This document shows, piece after piece, positions 46,068-62,992 of a DNA stretch of 64,000 nt. The stretch's first letter is position 1, and the number at the start of each line of letters is the position of its first letter. The notes under the pieces are model-generated. The model saw only the letters and a program-made list of their open reading frames with translations, was not told the origin of the DNA and ran no database searches. The position numbers and the translations under genes were made by a program. This DNA is from Phlebopus portentosus (Eukaryota > Basidiomycota > Agaricomycetes > Boletales > Boletinellaceae): positions 1,302,001 to 1,366,000 of the forward strand of contig JAYXKI010000013.1 of the NCBI GenBank assembly GCA_037892935.1, read 5' to 3'.

Positions 46068-46832
46068 TCACCCCCCTCTCAAGGTTGGGCGTCCCGACCA
46101 ACCACATAATCCTTCTGACGACGTGAACCTATACAGTGTTCGCATGCTTTGTCGAGGTATTGTTAACTTTTGTGGAGCTCCAGGATGTTTGTGATAGAAT
46201 TCTTGAATTGATTCCTGTGCATTATCCTTGACGTCGGATTCCGGCTGCCATGTCGCTTCCTCATATCCAACCCACTTGACCAAGAATTGGAGCTTTCCTC
46301 GATGTAGATGTGAGTCGAGTATTTCTTCAACCTCGTACTCTTCCTGTTCGTCAATGATCACTGGTGGAGGTGGAGGTGGCTTCTTCTGTGATTCGAAAAA
46401 CGGTTGAACAGCCGGTTTGAGCAGGATCTCGTTAAAGACGGGATGAACGTGTTTCCATGTCTTTGGGATCTTTAGCTTATACATGCTCGCGCCCACCTTT
46501 TCCATTACCTCGAATGGGCCAAACCATTTGTCGTCCATCTTCTTCGTCGGTCGGATCGTCTTAATGTTTTGACCATCCAAGAAGACCTTTTGTCCCATCT
46601 CATATACTACTGACTTTCTGGCATGACGATCGTAAAAGCGCTTCATGTCTTCATTGGCCTGGGTCAGATTGGCCTGAGCGAGTTCGTGTATTCCCTTGAC
46701 ATGTTTAGCAAACTCTTCTGCCGATAGATTGGACGAAGTCGTTTCAACACCCGTAAAGCCTGAAGGGTGTTGTCCCGTGTTGACGAAGAAGGGTGATAGT
46801 TTGGTCGCCAAATGTTTGCGATTGTTGTGCGC
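46068..46832 (-). pseudogene. pol: T7 Pol, C-terminal fragment: integrase end and chromodomain
   Basis: Intact frame from NNRKHLATKLSPFF through the GPF/Y region (KWFGPFEVMEKVGASMYKL) to the chromodomain (EEYEVEEILDSHLHRG, LVKWVGYEEATWQPES) and stop. Cut at 46832 by F; codons upstream of that in the open frame come from the F LTR and are not genuine. Confidence 0.92.
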
Positions 46833-48174
46833 TGTAAGAAGCATCGACACGCTAGGTCCGAGATCGCGCACGTGACACGTGTTCCGCGGTGATCCGCATC
46901 GTAACAGCGGAACTCGGTGCGGATCGATTCGATTCGAAGTGGAACGGACTACTGTAGCCTCTCGCACTCGACCGCTGCGTAGGAAGAACCTTCGGACGCT
47001 CGAGCCACCCAGTCGAAAACTTACAAAGGCTGACTTAGCTAGCTCGTCTTACTAAACCCAGGCACGAGAGGTAAATTGAAGGATCCGCAATCGGCCCCCG
47101 ACACCTCCCAAGTTTCGACCCGACGCGACGCACTCCGGCTTTTCCCCTTTTTGAGTCCCATATGCGTTCATATTTTGTTTTGTTCCTTATGATTCTTATG
47201 CTCATTATTCCGTGTGCGCTCACATTTCGTATTATGCTCTATGGTCATTATCTCGCCACCTTCCAGATATGCTCACCTCGTACTTTGTTCCCGTGTGTTC
47301 CCTTATGATTTTCACTTCCGATTTCCTTTCGTTATGCTCCCTGACGCTCCGATGGCTCAGGTTCGGACAAAGTTATAAATAGGCGAGCAACTTGTAGTAG
47401 GAGCCCAGTTTTAGCCCGGAGAGTTTTAGCAGAAAACAGTTTAGCTCGGGCTTGAACCCACTTTAGCTACAGTCGAGACCAATTCGACTCTTCCTGTACT
47501 CTCCTCGACTCTATCTCCCACAAATACACGATAGTTCTGTCTCATACGCCTCGAGTCTCCTGCTCTGCAGTCGTACCCGAGCCCAGTGTGATCAGTTCAA
47601 CCCGTGTTGAAGTCGGAGACCCTCATCTCTCCTCCCTACGCCCCTACGCGAGGTCTCACTTGAGTCCCTTGCGTATCGCTTCGTTCCGCGTCGTATCGCT
47701 CCGTTTCGCTTCGTAACCCACCGAAACCCGTCGTAACTCGTCGTAACCCGTTATATCGTGTCGGATCCTCGAAAGGATCACCTTCGAATCGTCAGCGCTT
47801 AGGGGAAGTCCTTCTCTAAGCTTCGTCTCATCGTCTTCCGCCTTCAGGGTTCGAATCCATCGAGGGATTACCTGTGAGGACATCGATTACCTTCGCACCG
47901 CCACCGCCGATCCCCCCTTGCTTCGACTTCTCCCGCCTTGCTTCTTCACCTATCTCCTTTAATCCAATCCCCCCTCGCATACATCCAGCCGCCTTCAATC
48001 CCATTTCTCCTCCATCCCTTCCGGAACTGCTCCGGAACCCAGATCGACGCATCAGCCCTTCTCTAGTTTTCCCCCCAAAGATCACCCTTCTCTTTCCCAC
48101 TCGTTTTAATCTTACCGAACAGCCCCCAAGAACTGTGACACTCCTCAGCTATCAGACAGTGCACAGGAGTTTCA
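46833..48174 (+). repeat. 5' LTR of F
   Basis: TGTAAGAAGC to GAGTTTCA. TATA box TATAAATA at 47374-47381. A stretch of short GTCGTAAC/TCGCTTCG-like repeats occupies about 47665-47765. Confidence 0.96.
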
Positions 48175-48175
48175 A

Positions 48176-50779
48176 GTGGAGCCCACGGCGAGGGGGGAAA
48201 TTCACTGTTCGTCCAAAACGAGTAACCAAACTCCAGGTAGTACTCGGACTACCCGAAGCCAATCAGCCCGTATCCCCGTAGTTCACCAAGCCTTACCCCA
48301 AGTCACACCTCGGACACCTAGGCAGAGGGCAAGCGCTAGAAGCACCACAGCATCGTCGCTAAGTTCTTCAGTAATTCAACCTTCACCTCTGACCGAGTCC
48401 AGTACCCTACCATCGTTCGAGCCGTCGGCCGAATCGTCTCCTTTTAGTTTCCAAGAAACCGATCTACCTACCGAATTCTCCGAGCAAGAATCCTCGTCGC
48501 CTGAGGATATCACTGTTCGACTCGATTACCCAGACCCCGCTAGGCTCAGACAGCCTCAAACCTCCAATCAAGCGATCCAAGTCGATCCGCTTGCGCAACA
48601 GTCGCAACCAAGCGGATTAACTCTCGCTCACCACCTCCAAGGACTGGGAAGTAACCTGCAGATCCTTAACCAACTTCAGACCAATTATCAGCAGTTGCAG
48701 CGTATATCGAACCAGATGGCTGCAGTTAGACCACCTCTTCGAGGTGACAAGAGAGCACCAGTATTCGACGGTTCCGATCCGAAGGAACTGTTCCGCTTCT
48801 TCGACGACGTGGATGCGATCGCAATAGATTCCAACTGGGATGCGTCGACTACCATCAGACGTGGGTACCTGTACTATGCGAAGACTGACGTTGCAGAAGT
48901 ATGGGAGACCCTCCCCGAAGTTTCTGCCGCCCCTGCGAGTGTCGGAGATTTCAAAACGGCCGTCAAGAAGCTTTATCCAAGTTTGGCAGACGGCAAGAGA
49001 TACTCTAGGGGCGAATTGGAGCAGTTCATCGCCGAATGGGCCGAAAAAGGTATTCACACCAGAGATGAATTCGGCACTTATCATCGCGAGTTCCTACGCA
49101 GAGCCAGGTATCTAGTTGCCAGCAACAAACTTACCGAGAACGACTCGAAATTCGCGTTTCTTCGAGGCATTTCTGGCCAGACTAGGAAGGATATCCTGCA
49201 AAGGCTCGAAATCAAGGACCCGGACCACGAGAGGGGCGACCCCTACGACATCGAGAAAGTAGCAAACGCAGCTATGTACATTCTTTCGGGATCCGCAGTC
49301 GATCAGATCGGATCCGACCCGATGAGCGGCGGAACGAGCGCAACGATGAGCGCGTCGTCGGGAGGACATGGAATGACCGTCAAGAAGGAAGAAACGGACT
49401 TGAGTAAAGTTTGGGAAACGCTGAAGGGTTTTCAGGTAACACTGGAATCGCTCACTAGAGGCCAGGGCCCTCGAATCGCAACAGGTCCGCAACCGGCCCC
49501 ATTGGCTCGCACGCCCGGATGTGCGTTCTGCAGCGATCCCGGCCACTTTATAAGGTCGTGCCCGAAGGTACTCGAGTATATCCAGGCCGGAAAGTGTCTA
49601 CGTGACTCGAACGGACGAGTAGTCATGCCAAACGGAGCCTTCGTATCAAGTAGGGTTTCGGGCCGGAACCTGATGGAGCGAATTGACAACTTGCTAAAGC
49701 CGAACCCGTCACATCCAGTCAACATCATCGAAGTCGCCGAGCACCCGGGAACCCCGGCCGAGCCGATAGCATCAGCTATGCTCCAGGAAATCGGCGAGGA
49801 TCAGACAGAAGAGACCGATTACGAAGTAGAACGTTTAGAAATCTTGCTCAACGAGGCAAAGAAGAAAGCGGCGACTGGTAAAAGGCAGAAGTTCGACGGA
49901 GTAGTCATTCCGACAAAAGTGGGACCGCCGGGAAGAGGGGCTTCGAAGGCGCAGCAGTCGCCACCCCCTATTCCTAAGTCCCCGGCGGTTTCACGTTCGT
50001 CACCGCAGCGGGATGATATTAGAAAACCCTCGAACCCCCAACCCCAATACCGCTACGTAGTCCCCGTTGAAGATTCTAACGCTGTCTCTAACGTGCTCAC
50101 TCGGACGCTCGACACGAGCATTACGCTTAGCCAAAGGGAACTGTTATCGATCGCCCCCGAACTACGAAAGCAACTAAAGGAACTCACTACCGCAAAGAGA
50201 TATAACGCTGCCGATGTGAATCTCGTCGAATCGCCGAGTTACGCCATGCAACTGTGCGGAACCGCATCGCAACAAACTGAGGACTCGATTCTGTCCATCG
50301 GAACGTCGGGAGTGACCGCGGAAGCAACTCTCCCCCTTCGTACGATTACAGCCGTAGTGGAGGACGCGATGGAAGTGGAGTGCGTACTCGATCAAGGCGC
50401 AGCAGTGTGTCTGATTAGGGAAGACGTTTGGGAAAAACTTCAAGTGCCCCTATCACCGGACCAGAGCACGACCATCGAGATGGCGGACACAGCGAAGTCG
50501 GCCACCGTAGGACTAATCCCGAACGCCAAGTTTACGATAGCCGGGATTGATCTTTCCCTGCAAGTGCATGTCGTTTGTCAGGCGCCGTTTCAGGCGCTAC
50601 TCGGACGACCCTTCTTCGCAGTAACCGAATGCGAAACCAAGGATTATACCTCGGGAGACCAGCATATAACGCTATCAGACCCCAACGACAGGAATCGACA
50701 TAGCAAAGTCGCGACTGGAATTCGGAACGTGTTGCGCAACGTTGCGCAACAGGGTTTTCAGCAGACGTCGAGGAACTGA
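48176..50779 (+). CDS. gag: F Gag-protease
   Basis: 867 codons counted from a GTG. The first ATG is at 48716 (687 residues), and the 180 codons before it are Ser/Pro-rich with no ATG, so the true start is open. Gag core around residues 200-320 (KRAPVFDGSDPKELFRFFDD, REFLRRARYLVASNKLTEND), zinc knuckle CAFCSDPGHFIRSC near 448, then a linker and a retropepsin-like domain from about 710: VLDQGAAVCLI near 737 and ALLGRPFF. The protease triad is D-Q-G, not the usual D-S/T-G. Unlike the T family, protease is encoded with Gag. The stop at 50777 lies 19 nt past a slippery heptamer. Confidence 0.88.
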   Translation: MEPTARGEIHCSSKTSNQTPGSTRTTRSQSARIPVVHQALPQVTPRTPRQRASARSTTASSLSSSVIQPSPLTESSTLPSFEPSAESSPFSFQETDLPTEFSEQESSSPEDITVRLDYPDPARLRQPQTSNQAIQVDPLAQQSQPSGLTLAHHLQGLGSNLQILNQLQTNYQQLQRISNQMAAVRPPLRGDKRAPVFDGSDPKELFRFFDDVDAIAIDSNWDASTTIRRGYLYYAKTDVAEVWETLPEVSAAPASVGDFKTAVKKLYPSLADGKRYSRGELEQFIAEWAEKGIHTRDEFGTYHREFLRRARYLVASNKLTENDSKFAFLRGISGQTRKDILQRLEIKDPDHERGDPYDIEKVANAAMYILSGSAVDQIGSDPMSGGTSATMSASSGGHGMTVKKEETDLSKVWETLKGFQVTLESLTRGQGPRIATGPQPAPLARTPGCAFCSDPGHFIRSCPKVLEYIQAGKCLRDSNGRVVMPNGAFVSSRVSGRNLMERIDNLLKPNPSHPVNIIEVAEHPGTPAEPIASAMLQEIGEDQTEETDYEVERLEILLNEAKKKAATGKRQKFDGVVIPTKVGPPGRGASKAQQSPPPIPKSPAVSRSSPQRDDIRKPSNPQPQYRYVVPVEDSNAVSNVLTRTLDTSITLSQRELLSIAPELRKQLKELTTAKRYNAADVNLVESPSYAMQLCGTASQQTEDSILSIGTSGVTAEATLPLRTITAVVEDAMEVECVLDQGAAVCLIREDVWEKLQVPLSPDQSTTIEMADTAKSATVGLIPNAKFTIAGIDLSLQVHVVCQAPFQALLGRPFFAVTECETKDYTSGDQHITLSDPNDRNRHSKVATGIRNVLRNVAQQGFQQTSRN
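48177..48190 (+). promoter_or_regulatory. Candidate tRNA-type PBS of F
   Basis: TGGAGCCCACGGCG begins two bases after the LTR, as expected for a tRNA 3'-end complement. The primer tRNA is not identified; the implied discriminator base is U. No complement occurs near the inferred RNA 5' end. Confidence 0.4.
50731..50750 (+). repeat. Tandem palindrome upstream of the F frameshift site
   Basis: Two adjacent copies of the perfect palindrome GTTGCGCAAC, ending one base before the slippery heptamer. Confidence 0.85.
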
Positions 50780-50791
50780 TACTAAGACGTC
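50752..50791 (+). promoter_or_regulatory. -1 frameshift signal of F: GGGTTTT plus downstream hairpin
   Basis: Heptamer G GGT TTT in gag frame (50752-50758). Slipping -1 gives TCA GCA GAC, open through the gag TGA into the RT ORF. Five bases later GACGTC (50764-50769) can pair with GACGTC (50786-50791), extended by flanking G-C pairs, a plausible stimulatory stem-loop. Confidence 0.65.
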
Positions 50792-53700
50792 AGCGAGACG
50801 TAGGCGATTATTCATGTTCAAGCCTCAACAATACGTTTTCTATCTATTCTATTGATGTTTCCGACGCTTTCACCTCTCTATTTAGTAACCAGCTTCGGAA
50901 GCTGATGAAAGACCCAATGCGTTTTGCTACTGACTATTCAAATCGACCTTATAGATCATGTATTCTAGAGACCCCGGACGACGACGACCCGGCGGTACTC
51001 ATGTACAAACGCGTCGCTCAGAAAGTACGGCCCGTCCCCGGGGTACTACCAGAAGAATTTCGGATCGTTCGAAGAAGGCATCCGAACCCGCTCGAAGGAC
51101 TGTCCGAAATACCAAAGAAACCGAAACCGTTTACGCCCATAGGCAGACTTACGAAGGAGCGGTTTGAAGCCCTCAGGATTGACGAGAATCAGTTCTTATG
51201 GCCCGAAGAAAGGCTGCTAGTGGCTAACCTACTTATGCTGCAGGAAGGAGCACTAGCGTGGACGGAAGCGGAACGGGGTAGTTTCGATGCGCAATACTTC
51301 GATCCGATTCGCATCCCGACGGTACCGCATGTACCGTGGGTACACAAGAACATACCTATTCCTCCGGGTATTCTCGAGCGTACCATCAACCTGATTCGCG
51401 AGAAAATCAAGAATGGAGCCATTGAACCGTCTAACTCCTCGTACCGATCACGATGGTTTTGCCTAGTCAAGAAAGATGGAGTCTCCCTTCGATTTATACT
51501 CGACCTGCAAGACATGAATGGCGTTTCCGTCCGAGACTCAGCCGTTCCGCCGAATATAGAGACCATTGCGGAGCGTTGCGGCGGACGAAGTTGTTATTCG
51601 AGCCTCGATTTCTATGTGGCTTTTGACCAGCGAGTTCTAGACGAACGCTCTCGAGATCTCACGACATTTCAGACTCCCTTGGGAACGTTCAGAATGACGG
51701 TTCTCCCGATGGGATACACGAATTCCCTTCAGATTATGCACAATGACGTCGCTTTCATCCTACAAGACGAGATTCCGCACTGTACCGATCCGTATGCAGA
51801 CGATTCGCCCGGATTAGGCCCCAAAACGCGCTACGAACTCCCGGATGGCTCTTACGAAACCCTGCCAGAGAATCCAGGGATTAGGCGATTTATTTACGAG
51901 CATATATGCGACGTAAATCGAATTTTGCAGCGAGTCAAGGCAGTGGGAGGAACGTACTCAGGAAAGAAAATGGAGATCGGCGTTGAGTCAATCGTATTTC
52001 TCGGACACAAACTGACATATTACGGACGAGAGCCAGACGAATCGAAAGTCCAGAAGGTCAGGGACTGGCCGCCGTGCCGATCGGTAACCGAAGTCAAAGG
52101 ATTCCTCGGAACGGTGGGAGTCCTGCGAATTTTCATTAAGGACTTCGCCAAGATCGCACGCCCCCTCAATCGACTCACTCGGAAGAACAACATTTTCGAT
52201 TGGACAGACGAAGAACAGGAATCAATGAACGAGTTGAAAGAAGCGGTCATTAGGTGTCCAGCTCTATGCGCAATAGACTATCAATCGCAACTCGAAGTCG
52301 TACTTGCGGTGGATTCATCGATTATCGGAGTAGGATGGTATTTGGGTCAAGAACACGTAGATGGACGAAGAAGGATTAATCGCTTCGGTTCCATAAACTG
52401 GAATGCCACGCAAGCAACATACTCCCAACCGAAAATCGAACTTTACGGACTATTTCGTACGTTACACGCCATGCGACTATATCTCATCGGAGTGCGCAAG
52501 CTTGTCGTAGAAATGGACGCAGCATACATTAAAGGCATGATTAACAACCCGGACTTACAACCTAACGCTACGATCAACCGCTGGATCGCCGGGATACTTC
52601 TATTCGACTTCGAGATTCGCCACATCCCGGCGGCAAACTTCAAATGCACCGACGGACTTTCTCGACGACCCCCGGCACCCGAAGATCCACCTCCGGACAA
52701 AGGATACGAAGAGTGGATAGACGACACGTATGGATTCTACATCGAAAACCCAGTTACGACGTATTGCGCAGACTTACGTGCGCGCAACCAAACGAAACGA
52801 CTCCCATCGAGCCCTGGAAATGCGCAAGCAACTCTCGGATCAGTAGGATACCTCGAGGGCTCGAACAGTAAACGCCGGAAGGGAAACGGCAGCTCTGACT
52901 TCCCGAAGATGACTGACATCGCGTTGACCTTGTTTCCCAGCTCCGAGAGAGCTAACCCGAAAGATGCTCGCTTGGATCACGTCAAGAGCTTCTTGATCGG
53001 CCAGAAGCGACCGGATCAGTTAGACGATCGTGGCTATGCAGCGCTGATCAGGTACGCGGCAAATTTCTTCGCTAGAGACGGACGTTTGTGGAAGAAGGTG
53101 CGGAACGGACGACACCAAGTCGTAATCGAACCGGAACGCAGATGGAACCTCGTAAAGCAAGCGCATGACGATCTAGGCCACAAGGGAGTATACTCTGTTC
53201 GAATTCGACTCCTGGAACGATTTTGGTGGCCTACCCTCGGTCCAGACGTCAAATACTACGTGCGCACCTGTCATGAGTGCCAAGTTCGCCAGACGAAGAA
53301 CATTCTAATTCCCCCGGTCGTACCAACAATACCATCGATTTTCCAGCGCATACACATCGACACCAAGGTAATGCCGAAGTCTGGAGGATACCGGTACATC
53401 GTACAAGCCCGATGCGCTTTATCCGGTTACCCCGAATTTCGACTCTTGCGCGAAGAAACCGGCAAAGCGATAGCCCAGTTCATTTTCCAAGACCTCCTTT
53501 GCAGATACGGCGCTTGTCCCGAGCTCGTAACAGATAATGGGAAACCGTTCATCGCAGCACTCGATTACCTCAAGAATCGATATCACATCAATCACATACG
53601 CATCTCAGCATACAACTCTCGCGCTAATGGAATTGTAGAAAGACGCCACTACGATGTGCAGGAAGCCCTGATAAAGGCTGTAGACGGTAATGACAAACGA

Positions 53701-53937
53701 TGGAGCGACCAAGCTTACTCAGTATTTTGGGCAGAAAGAATCACCATCCAGAAGGCGACCGGAATGTCCCCGTATTACATGGTACACGGAGTAGAGCCTA
53801 TTCTACCTTTCGACCTCGCCGAAGCCACGTACTTAGCCCCCCGGTCGATACGCCTGTTCCGACTGCGGAACTCATCGCAACTCGCGCGAAGCAGCTCCAG
53901 AAGCGTCCTGAGGAACTGGATCGAATCGCCAGATTAG
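50758..53937 (+). CDS. pol: F Pol: reverse transcriptase, RNase H, integrase
   Basis: The frame is open from the slippery site; the first ATG is at 50905 (1,010 residues). RT: RFILDLQDMNG, CYSSLDFYVAFDQ, TVLPMGYTNSLQ and a YADD box near residue 296 in place of YLDD/YVDD. RNase H begins near 468 (LAVDSSIIGVGWYLG). Integrase H2C2 finger about 753-795 (HDDLGHKGVY, CHECQVRQTK) and core with IHIDTK, TDNGKPF (Asp near 877) and NGIVERRH (Glu near 912). Reading runs out of frame at a C6 run (53837-53842); the last 30 residues before the stop at 53937 are not genuine integrase. Confidence 0.92.
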   Translation, partial: SADVEELILRRQRDVGDYSCSSLNNTFSIYSIDVSDAFTSLFSNQLRKLMKDPMRFATDYSNRPYRSCILETPDDDDPAVLMYKRVAQKVRPVPGVLPEEFRIVRRRHPNPLEGLSEIPKKPKPFTPIGRLTKERFEALRIDENQFLWPEERLLVANLLMLQEGALAWTEAERGSFDAQYFDPIRIPTVPHVPWVHKNIPIPPGILERTINLIREKIKNGAIEPSNSSYRSRWFCLVKKDGVSLRFILDLQDMNGVSVRDSAVPPNIETIAERCGGRSCYSSLDFYVAFDQRVLDERSRDLTTFQTPLGTFRMTVLPMGYTNSLQIMHNDVAFILQDEIPHCTDPYADDSPGLGPKTRYELPDGSYETLPENPGIRRFIYEHICDVNRILQRVKAVGGTYSGKKMEIGVESIVFLGHKLTYYGREPDESKVQKVRDWPPCRSVTEVKGFLGTVGVLRIFIKDFAKIARPLNRLTRKNNIFDWTDEEQESMNELKEAVIRCPALCAIDYQSQLEVVLAVDSSIIGVGWYLGQEHVDGRRRINRFGSINWNATQATYSQPKIELYGLFRTLHAMRLYLIGVRKLVVEMDAAYIKGMINNPDLQPNATINRWIAGILLFDFEIRHIPAANFKCTDGLSRRPPAPEDPPPDKGYEEWIDDTYGFYIENPVTTYCADLRARNQTKRLPSSPGNAQATLGSVGYLEGSNSKRRKGNGSSDFPKMTDIALTLFPSSERANPKDARLDHVKSFLIGQKRPDQLDDRGYAALIRYAANFFARDGRLWKKVRNGRHQVVIEPERRWNLVKQAHDDLGHKGVYSVRIRLLERFWWPTLGPDVKYYVRTCHECQVRQTKNILIPPVVPTIPSIFQRIHIDTKVMPKSGGYRYIVQARCALSGYPEFRLLREETGKAIAQFIFQDLLCRYGACPELVTDNGKPFIAALDYLKNRYHINHIRISAYNSRANGIVERRHYDVQEALIKAVDGNDKRWSDQAYSVFWAERITIQKATGMSPYYMVHGVEPILPFDLAEATYLAPRSIRLFRLRNSSQLARSSSRSVLRNWIESPD

Positions 53938-54918: not shown

Positions 54919-56839
54919 TTACTCTTCCTCCTCACCCCTTACCACCCTTCCTAGCGCACTGGTCTCGGCCAGCATCTCCTCCGCTAGGTTGCGCAGTTGA
55001 TCCGCAGCGCGGAACAACACGCGCGCGCGCCTCTCCAAGGCCGCCATCCGGAAATGGACGGCGCTCTCGTCCGTCCCGGCGACCAACTCCTCGATGTCAC
55101 TCACCTCGAGGACAGGCGCAACCGGCATCCTCAGCACCTGCGCCGTTGCGCGCTGACGAGCTTCGCGCGTCTCGCGTTCCACCTGCTCGTTCCGCAGGCG
55201 ACGCGCAGCCCTCCCGTGCGTAGCCAGCTCGCATCGCCGCCTGGCCTTCGTGCGGCAGTAATCACAGGCCTGCCCAGGGAAACCCTCACAGACCCGGCCT
55301 GTCCTCGCGCACCTCTCACACCCCTCATCATGCACGACCCAGCCACCAGCAGACGAATTGCTGCTGCTGCTGCTACTGCTGCTGCCGTCCCCGCCATCGC
55401 CTTGGCTTCCCTCATCCTCTTCCATTCGTTCTGCACTCGGAGACTCGCTCGCAGCCGGAGGATTGCTGTTGCTGCTGTTGCTCTCGCTGACAGCACCGTC
55501 CGGAAGAAAGAGGGGCGCTTCGTCAAAAGCCCCAAAGTCGTCATCTCCAGCCGGACCCCCAGAAGAGAAACCGTTGGCAGCAGAAGGAATGTTGCTGCTG
55601 CTGTTGTTGCAGTTCCCCTCTACCGACTCCTCGTCGCTCGAATAATCGACAATCCGAGGCCGCTTCGTGGGCCTCTCATCTCTCTCGCGATCCGAAGACG
55701 GCGACGGAACCCTGACCGCGCTTGCCATCTTCTCCAGCTCGCTCAAGTACGAAACTCGGTCCGCACGATCTTCCAGCTCGCTGATGACGGACTCCCGCTC
55801 CACCTGACTCAAGTCTTGACGACCCAGCAGCGTCCTGAGGGCAGACTCGGTCAATTCGGATATACCCGACGAAAAGGGGCCCGATCCGCCGAGATGCGCG
55901 TCGGAACGCAGCGCAACGAGGGCGTCTGCGGCTTTGACCGAGCACGGGCAGCACTTCTCCTCATACGCAGTCCAGCACCGCAGGGCCTCGTGGACGTGAC
56001 TCTTCAGCGGCGCTGAGAGGAGGATTCCCCGGATCTCCGCCCAAGCGAGCCACCCGAATTCGGTCCAGACGTCGTCAATCTCCGTGCCGGGAGGACGACG
56101 ACCGACCCAAAACATCCGCCATAGCTAGAAGTTCAACAGTTAGCAAGATTTGAAGAAGAAGCGAGAATGAGCACTCACCTGGTCCAGATCGATCTTCATG
56201 ACCGTGTTCTCCAGCTCGTCCTTCCTTTCGTCGAAATGGCCAACCAGTGGCCGTAGCAGATCGCGGTGACGACCGATCGCCCCTTCTAGACCGGTCAAAC
56301 CCGCGCGCCATTGCTGAACGTAGACTTCGGTGTCCGGCTTCGAACGCTTTTCGTCCTCGAGGTACGAAGCCTTGAGCGCATCGAGCTGGTCGCAGTTGAT
56401 GTTGAGGGTTGCGCAACGATCCGCAAGCGCAACCACGCTTTCCGCCCAGAAACGCGCGGCATATGGCGGCCACATCAAATCGATGGGCACCCACTCGGGC
56501 CGAAGGTCCTCGAGTCTCTTTCTCGCAGTCTATGAAGTTCAGGAAGTCGGAACGGAACGAAGAGAATAGATGAAGACAGAAAAGAAAGCGCACCTGGATC
56601 TCACGCATTTCCTCCGCCCTCTCAACGGACTGCGCAACGGTCATCCTCACGAACCGTCTCTGATCCACGTCCTCGTGCAAACGCTCGATGACCTGGACCT
56701 GGTTTCCGACACCGTAAAGCCACGTATCGCTGAACACGAAGCCCTCCGCTGAGACAGGGATCTCGTCGAACAGCGGCTGTTGTTGCTGCTGTTGCGGTTG
56801 TTGCTGTTGTCGCTGTTGTTGTTGCTGTTGATGGGACAT
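54919..56839 (-). CDS. Antisense three-exon gene in F: Zn2Cys6-type cluster protein
   Basis: Exons 56839-56594, 56529-56179 and 56124-54919; introns of 64 nt (CAG/GTGCGC to CATAG) and 54 nt (CAG/GTGAGT, branch CTAAC, TTCTAG). All joins keep frame, giving 600 residues from the ATG at 56839. Residues 1-25 are Gln-rich. Exon 2 is helical (WVPIDLMWPPYAARFWAES and following). Exon 3 has an NLS-like TKRPRIV, long Ser/Gly/Asp-rich acidic segments, and at about 468-497 the spacing CX2CX6CX7CX2CX7C (CERCARTGRVC to CDYC to RRRC), fitting the fungal Zn(II)2Cys6 consensus; a charged helical tail follows. This suggests a nuclear DNA-binding regulator, by motif only. It lies inside the LTRs, convergent with pol, and its ATG is 134 bp from the 3' LTR, which may drive it in antisense. 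Confidence 0.85.
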
Positions 56840-56958
56840 GACGGAGAGAAGAGAGGATAGATGAACGGAACGCGTCGCGAACCGCGTTTTACGCGTCAAG
56901 AATCTAGAGACGCCGAGTCTAACCCTATTGGGAGTGTGACTGCGGACAGTCACGATTT

Positions 56959-56973: not shown

Positions 56974-58315
56974 TGTAAGAAGCATCGACACGCTAGGTCC
57001 GAGATCGCGCACGTGACACGTGTTCCGCGGTGATCCGCATCGTAACAGCGGAACTCGGTGCGGATCGATTCGATTCGAAGTGGAACGGACTACTGTAGCC
57101 TCTCGCACTCGACCGCTGCGTAGGAAGAACCTTCGGACGCTCGAGCCACCCAGTCGAAAACTTACAAAGGCTGACTTAGCTAGCTCGTCTTACTAAACCC
57201 AGGCACGAGAGGTAAATTGAAGGATCCGCAATCGGCCCCCGACACCTCCCAAGTTTCGACGCGACGCGACGCACTCCGGCTTTTCCCCTTTTTGAGTCCC
57301 ATATGCGTTCATATTTTGTTTTGTTCCTTATGATTCTTATGCTCATTATTCCGTGTGCGCTCACATTTCGTATTATGCTCTATGGTCATTATCTCGCCAC
57401 CTTCCAGATATGCTCACCTCGTACTTTGTTCCCGTGTGTTCCCTTATGATTTTCACTTCCGATTTCCTTTCGTTATGCTCCCTGACGCTCCGATGGCTCA
57501 GGTTCGGACAAAGTTATAAATAGGCGAGCAACTTGTAGTAGGAGCCCAGTTTTAGCCCGGAGAGTTTTAGCAGAAAACAGTTTAGCTCGGGCTTGAACCC
57601 ACTTTAGCTACAGTCGAGACCAATTCGACTCTTCCTGTACTCTCCTCGACTCTATCTCCCACAAATACACGATAGTTCTGTCTCATACGCCTCGAGTCTC
57701 CTGCTCTGCAGTCGTACCCGAGCCCAGTGTGATCAGTTCAACCCGTGTTGAAGTCGGAGACCCTCATCTCTCCTCCCTACGCCCCTACGCGAGGTCTCAC
57801 TTGAGTCCCTTGCGTATCGCTTCGTTCCGCGTCGTATCGCTCCGTTTCGCTTCGTAACCCACCGAAACCCGTCGTAACTCGTCGTAACCCGTTATATCGT
57901 GTCGGATCCTCGAAAGGATCACCTTCGAATCGTCAGCGCTTAGGGGAAGTCCTTCTCTAAGCTTCGTCTCATCGTCTTCCGCCTTCAGGGTTCGAATCCA
58001 TCGAGGGATTACCTGTGAGGACATCGATTACCTTCGCACCGCCACCGCCGATCCCCCTTGCTTCGACTTCTCCCGCCTTGCTTCTTCGCCTATCTCCTTT
58101 AATCCAATCCCCCCCTCGCATACATCCAGCCGCCTTCAATCCCATTTCTCCTCCATCCCTTCCGGAACTGCTCCGGAACCCAGATCGACGCATCAGCCCT
58201 TCTCTAGTTTTCCCCCCAAAGATCACCCTTCTCTTTCCCACTCATTTTAATCTTACCGAACAGCCCCCAAGAACTGTGACACTCCTCAGCTATCAGACAG
58301 TGCACAGGAGTTTCA
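56974..58315 (+). repeat. 3' LTR of F
   Basis: 1,342 bp; TATA box at 57515-57522. Followed by GCGC and T7 pol. Confidence 0.96.
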
Positions 58316-61300
58316 GCGCAAACTCTGCAAGAGCTAACCAGTCCGCCCAGTCTGACTGCCGATGATTGACGTATAGTCGAAGGTACTGTTCGAGTTCTTG
58401 ATTAACTCGTTCTGTCTGTCCATCAGTTTGAGGGTGGTATGCTGTTGACGGATTACCTTCGATGTGAAGGAGTTTGTACAACTCCCTCATCATCTTCACA
58501 TCGAACTGTACCCCTCGGTCATGGATGATCTTTCGAGGTAAACCATGCAATCGGAAGACATGGTCCCTATAAATCCTGGCCATCCCTTCTGCTGTCAATT
58601 TCGTCGTCGTTGGTATTGCATGGATTTGTTTGCTGAAGCGGTCGACTACCACACAAATCGCGTTAAATCCATTTGACTCCGGCAACTCTCCGATCAGGTC
58701 GACCGTGACAACTTGCCATGGTGCCTCCGGCACCTCGTTAGGGTGCAAAACCTTTGCCCTTGTTGTTCTGAGGGCCTTTGTCTGCTGACAACGATCGCAT
58801 CCTTGCACGTAATTCCTGACATCGATGTACATATTAGGCCACCAGAAACCTCTGCTTGCTAGTGCGACGGTCTTGTTTGCTCCTGGGTGGCCTGCTAACG
58901 TCGAGTCGTGACACTCCCTCATCACTTCCTCCCTCACGCTCGTCAGTATGAAAACGTTTTGAAACTTCTTCGTCTTCGTCCTCAAGAGCTTAACCGTCAC
59001 CTCTTTTTTCCACAACCCATCTACGAACACTAAGTTCATCGGTCTCTCTTCCTCATTCAACTCTATTTGTGCCTTTCGAATCTTTTCGCTCAGCACATCT
59101 CTTAATGTCTCCACCGCTCCCCTGACCAGCCATTCGTCTCTGATGAATGTGACGTCCTCATTATCCCGTTCGCCCTTGTTGTAGTCCGCCCGCCACAACA
59201 ATATGTCAGCCTTGCCCAACGTCTTCCCTGGCTTGTGTACTAACATGAAGTCGAATTCGGCTAAATCGAGTCGCCAACGAGCTTGTCGACGATTCAACTT
59301 TTGAGGCGATCGGAAATACATCAAGTTTGCGTGATCGGTCCATACTTCGAAAGATCTCTTGGCTCCTTGGAGGTATTGTCGCCATTCCTTAAGAGCTTGA
59401 ACAATTGTGAGCATCTCTTTGTCATAGATCTCGTAATTTCGTTCGGCCTCCAAGAAAGTCGATGATCGATAGGCTATCACCCTCCACTTGTCGTCTTGTT
59501 TCTGAAGGAGCACCCCTCCAGATGCAAAGTCCGACGCATCTGCTTCGACCCGGAAAGGACCCTCCTCGTTTGGGATGGCTAGAACCGGGGGACTACTCAA
59601 CCGACCCTTCAACTCTTCGAATGCTCGTTGTTCCTCCTCTCCCCACTTCCACTCCACCTTACCCGTCAGCATAGTTAAGGGTTTGACGACCGAGCTGTAA
59701 TCCTTGATGAAACGTCGCAACCAATTCCCTAGTCCCAGGAATTGTTGCAGTTCATGGACGTTCCATGGGCTTGGCCACTCCTGGACTGCTGCCGTCTTCT
59801 TGGGATCCATTCGAACTTCGCCATTGCCAATGATGTGTCCGAGGTACTTGACTGTGTCAACTTCGAATTCGCACTTCTGTGGCTTTAGGAAAAGTCCGTT
59901 TTGGCGAAGTATCTCAAAAACTCGTTTGGTGCATCTGCGATGTTCCTCTAGGTCATTCGAGAAGATGAGAATGTCATCGAGGTAAATGATGACGATACCC
60001 TCATGAATTAGCTCCCGAAAGATGTCGTTCATAAAGCCTTGGAACGTCGCTGGTGCATTACACAAGCTGAAGAACATGACTGTGGGTTTGAATAAGCCTA
60101 GGTTTGTCCAAAACACTGCCTTCCACTCGTCTCCCTCGCGAATCCGGATGTTGTAGTACCCCCAACGAACATCAAGCTTCGTGATGTACCTTGCATCCTT
60201 GACCTTGTCGATGAGCTCATTTATCAATGGCAACGGATATTTGTTCTTGACTGTCCCTTCGTTGAGCTTTCGATAGTCTTGGATCGCTCGTAAGCTCCCA
60301 TCTTCCTTCTTGATAAAGAAGAATGGAGACGCCATCGGGGATTTTGACTGTCGGATACATCCCGATGCTAGGTTCTCTTCGATGAACTCCTTCATCGCCT
60401 CTTGTTCTTTCGGCGACAATGGATAAACCTTGCAATCGCTGGGTTTGAAATCCGGTTTTAGGTCAATAGCGTGGTCCCACGTTCGGTGGTTTGGTAAGCA
60501 TTCGAACGATTCCTCACTAAAGACGTCCACGTATTCTTCCAGATAAGGTGGCCACTTCGCTGCCTCCTTCATCCGCACATTCCTCACAAACTCTTCGTCT
60601 ATCTCCTCGCTCGATAGTGACAACTCACATTCATCAGAGCAACGTGTGAACTTGACTGTTCCCAACCTCCAATCAATCTCAGGATTGTGCTTCGTCAACC
60701 AGTCATGTCCGAGGAAAATGTTGCTCGATGCCAAGGATGTCACTGCCAGTCGAATCTCCTCCTCATGTTTCCCAAAGAACATCCGCACGACTACATATTC
60801 CTTGATCAATCCCACCTCATTGCTTGTTCCGTCAGCATTGAAGACTGGTCTAGGCCGAATGTACCTTTGGGTGGGGAAACTATATCGTTTGACAAAACCC
60901 TCGTCGATACATGAACCCGTGCATCCCGAGTCGATTAGCGCATGAGCATTGATGAAGTTTTCCTCTTCGAGTAGAGGGTTTGACAAATCTACTTCATCAT
61001 CGCCTGCTACCTTTGGATGTACGATGCTAATGAAGGCATCCAACTCTTTTCCTCCCGCCCTCCAGATGAATTGATCTGCATCCACTATGCCCTCGCGCCA
61101 TACCTCAGCCGCGCGTCTGCCAACCACATCCCATACTGCTTCAGTATCGTTCGCCTGAGCAACAACGTTCTCGCGGTAAGGTGCTTCCACCTCAACCTCA
61201 TTTTTTATAGTGGTTTGATTCCGCTCTTCCACACTAAGCTCGTTTGAATCGCCTGCTTGCACATTCACTTTTCCAACCAACAAATCTGTGTAGACGTCGA

Positions 61301-61486
61301 AGTCATCGTTGTCCACTTCAGGTTCATCAGGTATCATGTCGGTAAGGAGTTTTTGAAGGGTGAAACCGTCACTGATATTTGCATCTTGGTATTGTACAAC
61401 AGGACGATTATATTTTAACGAGTCCAATGAAAAGAGTCCTTTAGGAAACTGACCAGTCGTTCCGACGTCTACGCCTGGTCCTCTGG
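58316..61486 (-). CDS. pol: T7 Pol, main part: linker, protease, RT, RNase H, integrase to the F insertion
   Basis: Uninterrupted from the frameshift site (61493-61487) to the F junction. Linker [16 protein letters not shown]; protease [12 protein letters not shown] with the Asp intact; RT with [11 protein letters not shown] and [11 protein letters not shown]; RNase H VEADASDFASGG; integrase H2C2 finger ([23 protein letters not shown]) and DD-35-E core (VTVDLIGE, HDRGVQFD, TERVNQE). Ends at WLALAEFA, continued at 46832. The integrase linker is of the T1 type (KKFQNVFI). A few substitutions at otherwise conserved positions (for example FFSLCN for FFGLCN) suggest mild decay. Confidence 0.93.
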
Positions 61487-62992
61487 AAAACCCTCGCCAT
61501 CCACGAGTTCTTCCAGTTCAGTCGGCACTGCTCGCACATCGATGTCGTCGACCTCTTCGAAGGAGGATTCCTTCACTTGGCCGAGTTCATTGAAGAGCGC
61601 CTTTCTGTCTGCTGGAACAAAGGCCGCAATGATTGCGCATATTGCTTCATGGCCTCGGGGGCATTCTCGAATGTAGTGGCCCACTTGACCACACTTATAG
61701 CAAGCGCGCGCGCGACGCGCCTGATTCATCATCACCTCCATCGGCTGACCTAGGCCTCCATATGTTACTCCAGTTGCATCACGACGATCTTGGGTGGGAG
61801 GGATGAGAGGGCGAGTCGCTTGTTGAGGCGGCACCGGACGTCTTAGTGGCGGTGGCATTAGTTTCATCACTGTTGAGCTGACCGTCTTCCTTCTATGCTT
61901 GGCCATCAGATCCCTGATCTGATGCTCGACCCTGTCGACCTTGACCGCAGCCTTCTTGAATTCCTCATACGTTGTCGGCTCATTGGGTAGGCGCATGATA
62001 CCTTCAACCACCTTCGGGTTTAGTGCTCGTTTCAAGCGACTCATCAGCCATTCGTCATGAGCCTCTGTGGCCAGTCCAGCGTCAACTCGACAAATGTCGA
62101 ACTTATTGAAGAACTCGTCGGCGTTAAGGTCCCCTTGGTACATCGCGTCAAGCCTTTCGAAGGCCTTCTGGGAACGAGCCAGATCATCAAACAAGGTGTC
62201 AAGTTTCTTTAGGAAAGCGTCCCAAGTGTCCTTGAATGCTATCCTACCCTGTTCGTCAATTGCGCCACTCGTGTAGCTTTCTGCCCAGCTTGCAGCAGCA
62301 CCGCTCTTCATATACGACAGAGCGAACATGATCTTTGCTTTGCTCGTCCTAAACTCTGACTCCGACGCATAAACATACAGGCGCAGCTCTCATTTGAAGT
62401 TGACATATCCGTGTTCACCATCGAAGTCTCGGGGCTTGGCAACATGAACCTTGTTCATCTTCGATCCTTGGCTCGTTCCTTCTCCTGCTGCTTGGAGTGC
62501 TAGTGCGATCGCTGTAGCAAGGTCCGTTATTGACTCTTTCGACAGCGACATCTCTTGTTCTTCTTCTTCGTCTTCCTCCTCTTCGTCTGTTGGTACGAGC
62601 GGAGCCGGCTCTCGTGGTTTGGTGAAAGACAACGAGGGTGCTATGGGTGGAGCTGGCATCTGACCTGTCGATGTTGATGGCCCTGGTAATGAAGCCGTTG
62701 ATCGTGTGGGGGTAGGGGGTGCGAGATCGTCTACTTCACCCTCTTGTTTCGCTCTCCAATATTGGGACTTGTCCCCTCTGGTAGAGTACCACTTCTTCGC
62801 AGCCTCGTCCCACCAAGCAATGAAGGTTTGATCGCCCGACTTGACAATATACTGTCCTTGCGACGCGCTCCACCTAGTGTTTGTCGGGAGAGCCGCCCGC
62901 TGATCGTCAGTTAGATCCACCTTGATAAGCCGGAGGTGGAACGGGGATCGGGATGGTGTTCGGATGGGACTGACTTCGGATGACCGGCTCGT
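61469..62992 (-). pseudogene. gag: T7 Gag with one nonsense codon
   Basis: Two open parts in the same frame, from 62992 (ACG) to 62393 and from 62389 to 61469, separated by a TGA (62392-62390) where T1 and T2 have CGA (FKREL). N-terminal conserved region (DDQRAALPTNTRWSAS), acidic tract, capsid-like core ([17 protein letters not shown]) and knuckle [14 protein letters not shown] are otherwise complete. Confidence 0.9.
61487..61493 (-). promoter_or_regulatory. -1 frameshift heptamer GGGTTTT in T7
   Basis: Same position in gag as in T1 and T2. Confidence 0.65.

Follow-up and report, generated by a model that had tools for sequence, protein, structure and literature searches.

A predicted three-exon antisense gene with a putative zinc cluster in Ty3-type LTR retrotransposons of a mushroom

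The window, by which we mean the whole 64-kb stretch of DNA that was analyzed, contains a young Ty3-type LTR retrotransposon, element F, which extends from position 46833 to position 58315, is bounded by GCGC on both flanks, and carries two LTRs that differ from one another by three substitutions and two gap positions (Table 1). The gag-like frame gave Pfam matches to DUF4100, an aspartyl protease, and a zinc knuckle, of which only that to DUF4100, a family of unknown function, exceeded the cutoff (E = 6.1e-10). Matches of the pol frame to RNase H and the integrase zinc domain were above the cutoff, and that to reverse transcriptase fell just below it; the frame is 1077 aa long in the window copy and in the copy at C15:1006513 and 1212 to 1213 aa long in several other copies. 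Element F is nested within another Ty3-like element, whose minus-strand frames flank it on both sides (46068 to 47048 and 58293 to 61517) and whose pol frame it interrupts; we take the C-terminal part of that pol to be chromodomain-like.

Table 1. Positions of the features of element F within the window
Feature	Position	Strand	Description
5' LTR	46833..48174	+	TG...CA, 1342 nt
TATAAATA			541 nt into the LTR sequence of element F (5' LTR)
gag-like/protease frame	48110..50779	+	Stop to stop, 889 aa
pol frame	50704..53937	+	Reverse transcriptase, RNase H, integrase zinc domain
Antisense gene	54919..56839	-	600 aa, three predicted exons; between pol and 3' LTR
Exon 3	54919..56124	-	1206 nt with stop; Ser/Asn-rich linker, zinc cluster, predicted C-terminal helices
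Six-cysteine cluster	55231..55320	-	aa 468-497, CX2CX6CX7CX2CX7C
Predicted intron 2	56125..56178	-	54 nt, GTGAGT...TAG, phase 0
Exon 2	56179..56529	-	351 nt
Predicted intron 1	56530..56593	-	64 nt, GTGCGC...TAG, phase 0
Exon 1	56594..56839	-	246 nt; Gln-rich start, phase 0 end
18-bp dyad GTGACTGCGGACAGTCAC	56936..56953	.	Between antisense ATG and 3' LTR
3' LTR	56974..58315	+	1342 nt
Four CGG-type heptamers, 3' LTR	57022..57066		GTTCCGC 57022, GATCCGC 57032, GCGGAAC 57048, GCGGATC 57060; candidate binding sites

Between pol and the 3' LTR, the minus strand carries a predicted gene of three exons that, when joined, form one frame of 600 codons, as the original prediction held; the joins that it proposed, at 56594/56529 and 56179/56124, proved to be correct, and the two introns are short, begin and end with the consensus GT..AG, and are both of phase 0, so far as splicing can be predicted. 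The gene thus occupies the position, antisense to gag-pol and between pol and the 3' LTR, that characterizes the class of antisense additional ORFs termed aORF-3R. Introns that are antisense to the genomic RNA would remain unspliced in that RNA and would therefore be inherited at each transposition. A plus-strand frame of 342 codons (54988 to 56016) overlaps exon 3.

The 38.4-Mb genome (23 contigs) was searched for further copies, and 40 loci around matches were fetched. The 3' part of the gene gave 37 matches and exon 2 gave 25, alongside at least 40 DNA matches to the integrase in the scored list, which also includes a second family (family 2, below). Nineteen full-length gene copies belonging to the family of element F (family 1), with that of the window included, were aligned. 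All 19 retain both introns, at lengths of 64 and 54 nt and with GT..AG borders, and the complete frame is kept in 13, 12 of which preserve the cysteine pattern as written in Table 1; the claim that the gene belongs to the element and moves together with its introns is therefore upheld in this family. Copies without the gene, or with random stops in it, had been named at the outset as evidence that would speak against it, and such copies do exist beside the 13 that are intact: the frame is broken in 6 of the 19, older copies carry stops, and most of exons 1 and 2 has gone from nine further loci (L024, L028 to L031, L033, and L044 to L046), at which the deletion ends near or in CAG/CTG-type repeats. 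These broken and shortened copies look like the products of ordinary decay after insertion. The deletion limits are identical in L024, L028, and L030, as if the deleted form had itself been copied, and since shortened loci multiplied nonetheless, the gene is not needed in cis. We considered a short functional form of the gene; a start-like site was found in eight of the nine shortened loci, the frame that follows stops within 38 codons, and the idea is thus unsupported.

A corresponding antisense gene is present in two diverged families, with integrase proteins that are up to 82% (family 2) and about 53% (family 3) identical to that of family 1. The family 2 gene, at L039 (4049 to 1752, minus strand), encodes 732 aa in three exons, separated by introns of 52 and 47 nt that are both of phase 0. 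Its 130-aa cluster region occurs at 66 places in the genome, 57 of them free of stops. Eight copies were aligned, five of which are open throughout; L050 is truncated and badly aligned, L041 is frameshifted, and in two of the eight, L049 and L053, the donor site of intron 2 reads AT instead of GT. The family 3 gene, read in a single copy (L055), has five exons and phase 0 introns of 60, 54, 63, and 54 nt; for intron 4, the frame needs an acceptor two bases downstream of the first AG, which would place the cluster out of frame. The 87-aa cluster exon of this family lies at 33 genomic places (32 without a stop), with an integrase match no more than 4 kb away on the other strand at 31 of them; conversely, the cluster exon lies within 4 kb of 32 of the 34 integrase matches listed. 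To judge by the counts for families 1 and 3, the gene occurs in all or most copies of a family, a further characteristic of aORF-3R genes. Homology between families 1 and 2 was detected in the C-terminal part of the protein (tblastn, 30.5% identity over 131 aa, E = 3.5e-7; hhalign, E = 1.5e-7), and none was detected by hhalign between their exons 1 and 2. Family 3 scored 65 against family 1, where the best of 2000 shuffles reached 60, and 64 against family 2, where the best of 2000 reached 63, a narrow excess. Retention of the introns and, in most copies, of the frame within family 1, together with the corresponding genes of two diverged families, confirms on sequence grounds that the antisense gene of element F goes beyond chance.

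Protein searches against 5.8 billion sequences returned one, one, and four matches, all from Sanghuangporus, but the first two scored only the best 7984 and 7997 word-sharing candidates and simple repeats abound in the query, so that a wider absence of relatives does not follow from these numbers. Among the proteins found, P0001, from S. sanghuang, belongs to family 1; of the four that belong to family 2 (P0002 to P0005), two come from S. sanghuang and one each from S. weigelae and S. baumii. These relatives would make Sanghuangporus the likely host. In the annotated models of P0003 and P0004, the residues that flank both predicted introns adjoin one another as in the splice that we predict. 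Exon 1 of P0001 is 23 residues shorter than in the splice given here and that of P0003 is also shortened; these differences are perhaps effects of gene prediction on damaged copies.

Low dN/dS had been proposed as a test of constraint on the antisense frame. Pairwise values between 18 family 1 copies and the window ranged from 0.10 to 0.90, and as the mutation spectrum lowers such values, we rejected them as the main proof; changes were instead redistributed by simulation over sites of equal three-base context. Among substitutions shared between family 1 copies, 31 changed an amino acid, compared to an expected 39.5 (P = 0.013, this and the P values that follow being guides because the copies are related), whereas among private substitutions the observed and expected numbers agreed (98 and 97.7). 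Taken over all family 1 substitutions, the deficit was not significant (129 versus 137.3; P = 0.13). For the eight family 2 copies, 18 shared amino acid changes were observed versus 28.9 expected (P = 0.0005), and the deficit persisted when one or two poor copies were dropped (9 versus 16.1, P = 0.0035, for seven copies; 9 versus 14.1, P = 0.0275, for six), with a weak deficit then also appearing among private changes (77 versus 89.1 and 73 versus 84.1, respectively). Constraint is thus indicated by the shared substitutions, and the family 1 total does not bear it out. A pattern in which shared changes are depleted is the one expected if transposing lineages are constrained while inserted copies drift. 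Where two groups of family 1 copies differ in their majority codons, six differences are silent and six are changing in the antisense gene, compared to five and one, respectively, in pol. The overlap with the 342-codon plus frame raises the question of whether the antisense frame could, as a by-product, simply reflect base composition or a gene that lies opposite to it on the sense strand. That plus frame displays no deficit of its own (88 changing substitutions versus 91.0 expected, P = 0.31, all substitutions), and a by-product would account neither for the introns and cysteines nor for the relatives in other families and species; we disfavor this explanation and find it scarcely credible.

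A solitary relative of the gene was observed at L054 (1099 to 1833, plus strand; C3:2959398-2960132), a frame of 244 codons with a cluster, CSRCARAGIACAGKEGRACFTCRAHRQGC, that is related to the clusters of the elements and scored above 1000 shuffles against each of families 1, 2, and 3. No second full match to L054 was found in the genome, a weaker match lies at C19:108156, and no integrase was found on contig C3 among the matches listed. L054 could be either a host donor of the gene or a domesticated copy. Its location away from integrase matches would suit a captured host gene that the element carries along as a passenger and from which it derives no benefit, and LTR elements are known to transduce genes, as the available text of one source relates (PMC7264820). 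We regard a mere passenger as highly unlikely: three families of elements carry the gene, with about 100 places in families 2 and 3 alone, the signal of constraint among shared substitutions would not be expected of it, and L054 may equally have come from an element.

What the gene might encode is indicated by its cysteines. Over all six reading frames of the window, the Gal4-type spacing appears a single time, compared to no occurrence in 20 first-order Markov windows, and families 1, 2, and 3 and L054 all have the Zn2Cys6 spacing CX2CX6CX5-12CX2CX6-8C. When six clusters were aligned (family 1, family 2 from three species, family 3, and the solitary L054), the six cysteines were the only invariant columns. 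Whole-protein Pfam scans at E values of up to 1 and up to 10 did not return Zn_clus (PF00172), and the 46-aa family 1 cluster scored 9.2 bits against a gathering cutoff of 21; all six cluster peptides matched this family at E values of up to 10, the best being 0.0016. A profile of the six clusters matched solved Zn2Cys6 structures of AlcR (1f4s, E = 0.0033), Pho7 (6o19, E = 0.0047), 6e33 (E = 0.0081), and Lac9 (1cld, E = 0.067), and L054 alone matched Leu3 (2er8, E = 0.44). In canonical Zn2Cys6 domains, the basic CxxCRxxKxxC half comes first. The alignments to 1f4s, 6o19, 2er8, and 2erg place the second half of the element cluster on the canonical first half and vice versa, and the alignment ranges of the other two profile matches agree with this swapped order; when halves were tested singly against Pfam, one of eight matched, namely the first half of L054, on profile positions 14 to 31. 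From these weak matches, the cluster is apparently a half-swapped Zn2Cys6 domain at the C-terminal end of the protein. The Gal4-type assignment made originally is accordingly retained for the spacing, which, with the weak profile matches to AlcR, Pho7, Lac9, and Leu3, constitutes the likeness to fungal Zn2Cys6 factors, whereas the C-terminal location, the swapped halves, the score below the Pfam cutoff, and the retrotransposon-borne gene set it apart from them. An AlphaFold model of residues 455 to 600 (pLDDT 75, pTM 0.35) contains helices at 33 to 77 and 98 to 145 and leaves the cluster poorly defined, with values of about 59 to 71; the structure prediction that had been suggested for the cluster residues thus yielded predicted helices and a cluster region of low confidence, and a fold search with a model of that quality gave no convincing match.

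These features of the protein bear on whether antisense RNA might be the active agent, by forming double-stranded RNA or by interfering with transcription of the sense strand, with the protein incidental. Antisense RNAs of retroelements can work without a protein, according to the parts of two sources available to us (PMC7264820, PMC10186651), but action through RNA does not predict six conserved cysteines at about 35 to 45% identity, a deficit of amino acid changes among shared substitutions, or phase 0 introns that restore the frame in three families, and we judge it to be quite improbable.

Candidate target sites lie in and beside the LTRs. The 18-bp dyad has a counterpart in family 2, GTGACCGCGGACGGTCAC, in which both arms are changed, and a tolerant search of the fetched loci, which was built on this dyad sequence and so favors such sites, recovered 41 distinct sites (42 rows, with one site on both strands), 36 of them with all six arm pairs. 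Within the LTRs, GCGGAAC is the top heptamer common to families 1 and 2, with three and four copies versus 0.3 and 0.2 expected, respectively, for a heptamer that had been noticed before it was tested; in both LTRs it is found near position 49, as part of the tandem arrangement GTTCCGC-N3-G(A/T)TCCG. The exact tandem pattern has 260 matches, a number inflated by LTR copy number, compared to 4 for the backward control. Neither the CGG-type heptamers nor the dyad was found in the 2501 bases of family 3 that were read; a link between family 3 LTRs and GTTCCGCAGAGTTCCG was considered from positions and was not established. For families 1 and 2, the presence of the dyad and of CGG-type sites in or beside the LTRs is suggestive of self-regulation.

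On balance, we favor the view that the predicted product of the antisense gene is a putative zinc-cluster DNA-binding protein that would likely bind CGG-type sites in the LTRs of its own element and regulate transcription of that element. A spliced antisense mRNA would arise from an antisense promoter situated within the 3' LTR or next to it. In the 3' LTR, the CGG-type heptamers of U3 are 183 to 221 nt away from the antisense ATG, and in the 5' LTR they precede the sense TATA box; the protein would return to these sites, common to the antisense and sense promoters, and would act on both its own gene and gag-pol. By analogy with HBZ, discussed below, we lean toward repression, or a brake on copy number, as the sign of this regulation. 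The protein could instead act elsewhere, binding DNA or chromatin in order to steer integration or to bring cDNA into the nucleus rather than to influence transcription. A DNA-binding cluster together with the predicted helical C terminus would fit such functions equally, the antisense protein of Grande is nuclear, and roles of this kind have been proposed for plant antisense ORFs in the text available from a published source (PMC7264820). On its own, a role in integration or nuclear entry leaves unexplained the CGG-type heptamers of U3 and the LTR-side dyad that families 1 and 2 share, and we think it rather unlikely.

The plant Ty3-type elements Grande (gene23), RIRE2, Retand (TRP28), and PvRetro13 have been described as carrying an additional antisense ORF in the interval from pol to the 3' LTR; these ORFs, as far as the accessible parts of these publications relate, resemble the gene of element F in place, orientation, many copies, and a suspected nuclear or DNA-binding role (PMC7264820, PMC11963269). 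The element F gene differs in its fungal host, its six-cysteine cluster, and its two to four predicted introns across families 1 to 3; the word "intron" is absent from the main texts of both publications (PMC7264820, PMC11963269). In Botrytis cinerea, Boty-type elements carry brtn (Zhao et al. 2011, Virology), likewise an additional antisense gene of a fungal LTR element between pol and the 3' LTR, compared here through its description in parts of the papers that cite it (PMC7264820, PMC8365987, PMC4227169); its host is an ascomycete, and Boty-like elements are credited with a CHROMO domain in the portion of the source available (PMC4227169). The original prediction had likened the position and orientation to those of retroviral antisense genes such as HBZ, and both are indeed those of known antisense accessory genes in the available descriptions (PMC7264820, PMC10186651): HBZ and APH-2/3/4 of HTLV are antisense genes beside the 3' LTR with a spliced transcript and a nuclear product that regulates its own LTR (PMC10186651, in part). 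It is the antisense gene next to the 3' LTR that HBZ and APH have in common with element F, and we use them as a guide to a possible mode of action and claim no relationship. HBZ is a bZIP protein, and a Pfam scan of the 600-aa protein at E values of up to 1 gave no bZIP family match.

Since antisense accessory ORFs are already known from plants and Botrytis, the novelty here lies in the multi-exon zinc-cluster variant. Among the matches listed from the open-access literature, in which subscription papers are largely missing, none was found to describe a fungal LTR element with an antisense gene for a zinc-cluster protein, and none of those listed for swapped Zn2Cys6 halves mentions "circularly permuted". 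To the extent of that literature, we thus found no account of the zinc-cluster product, of the division of such a gene into several exons, or of its persistence through three families.

Antisense genes of LTR elements in plants and Botrytis have been described for years without a known function, as the consulted parts of the literature present them (PMC7264820, PMC11963269). The recognizable zinc-cluster design, the many intact copies, the candidate sites within the same element, and a fungal host that can be cultured make the idea of a self-encoded transcriptional regulator directly testable. The antisense placement, by hiding introns from the splicing of genomic RNA, indicates how a multi-exon gene can survive reverse transcription. 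More tentatively, we entertain the possibility that a lineage of mushroom retrotransposons has a transcription factor of its own, namely a Zn2Cys6 protein with swapped halves that a spliced antisense gene encodes and that would read tandem CGG-type sites in U3 and exert feedback on every copy in the genome, with solitary relatives such as L054 as its donor or as a domesticated offshoot.
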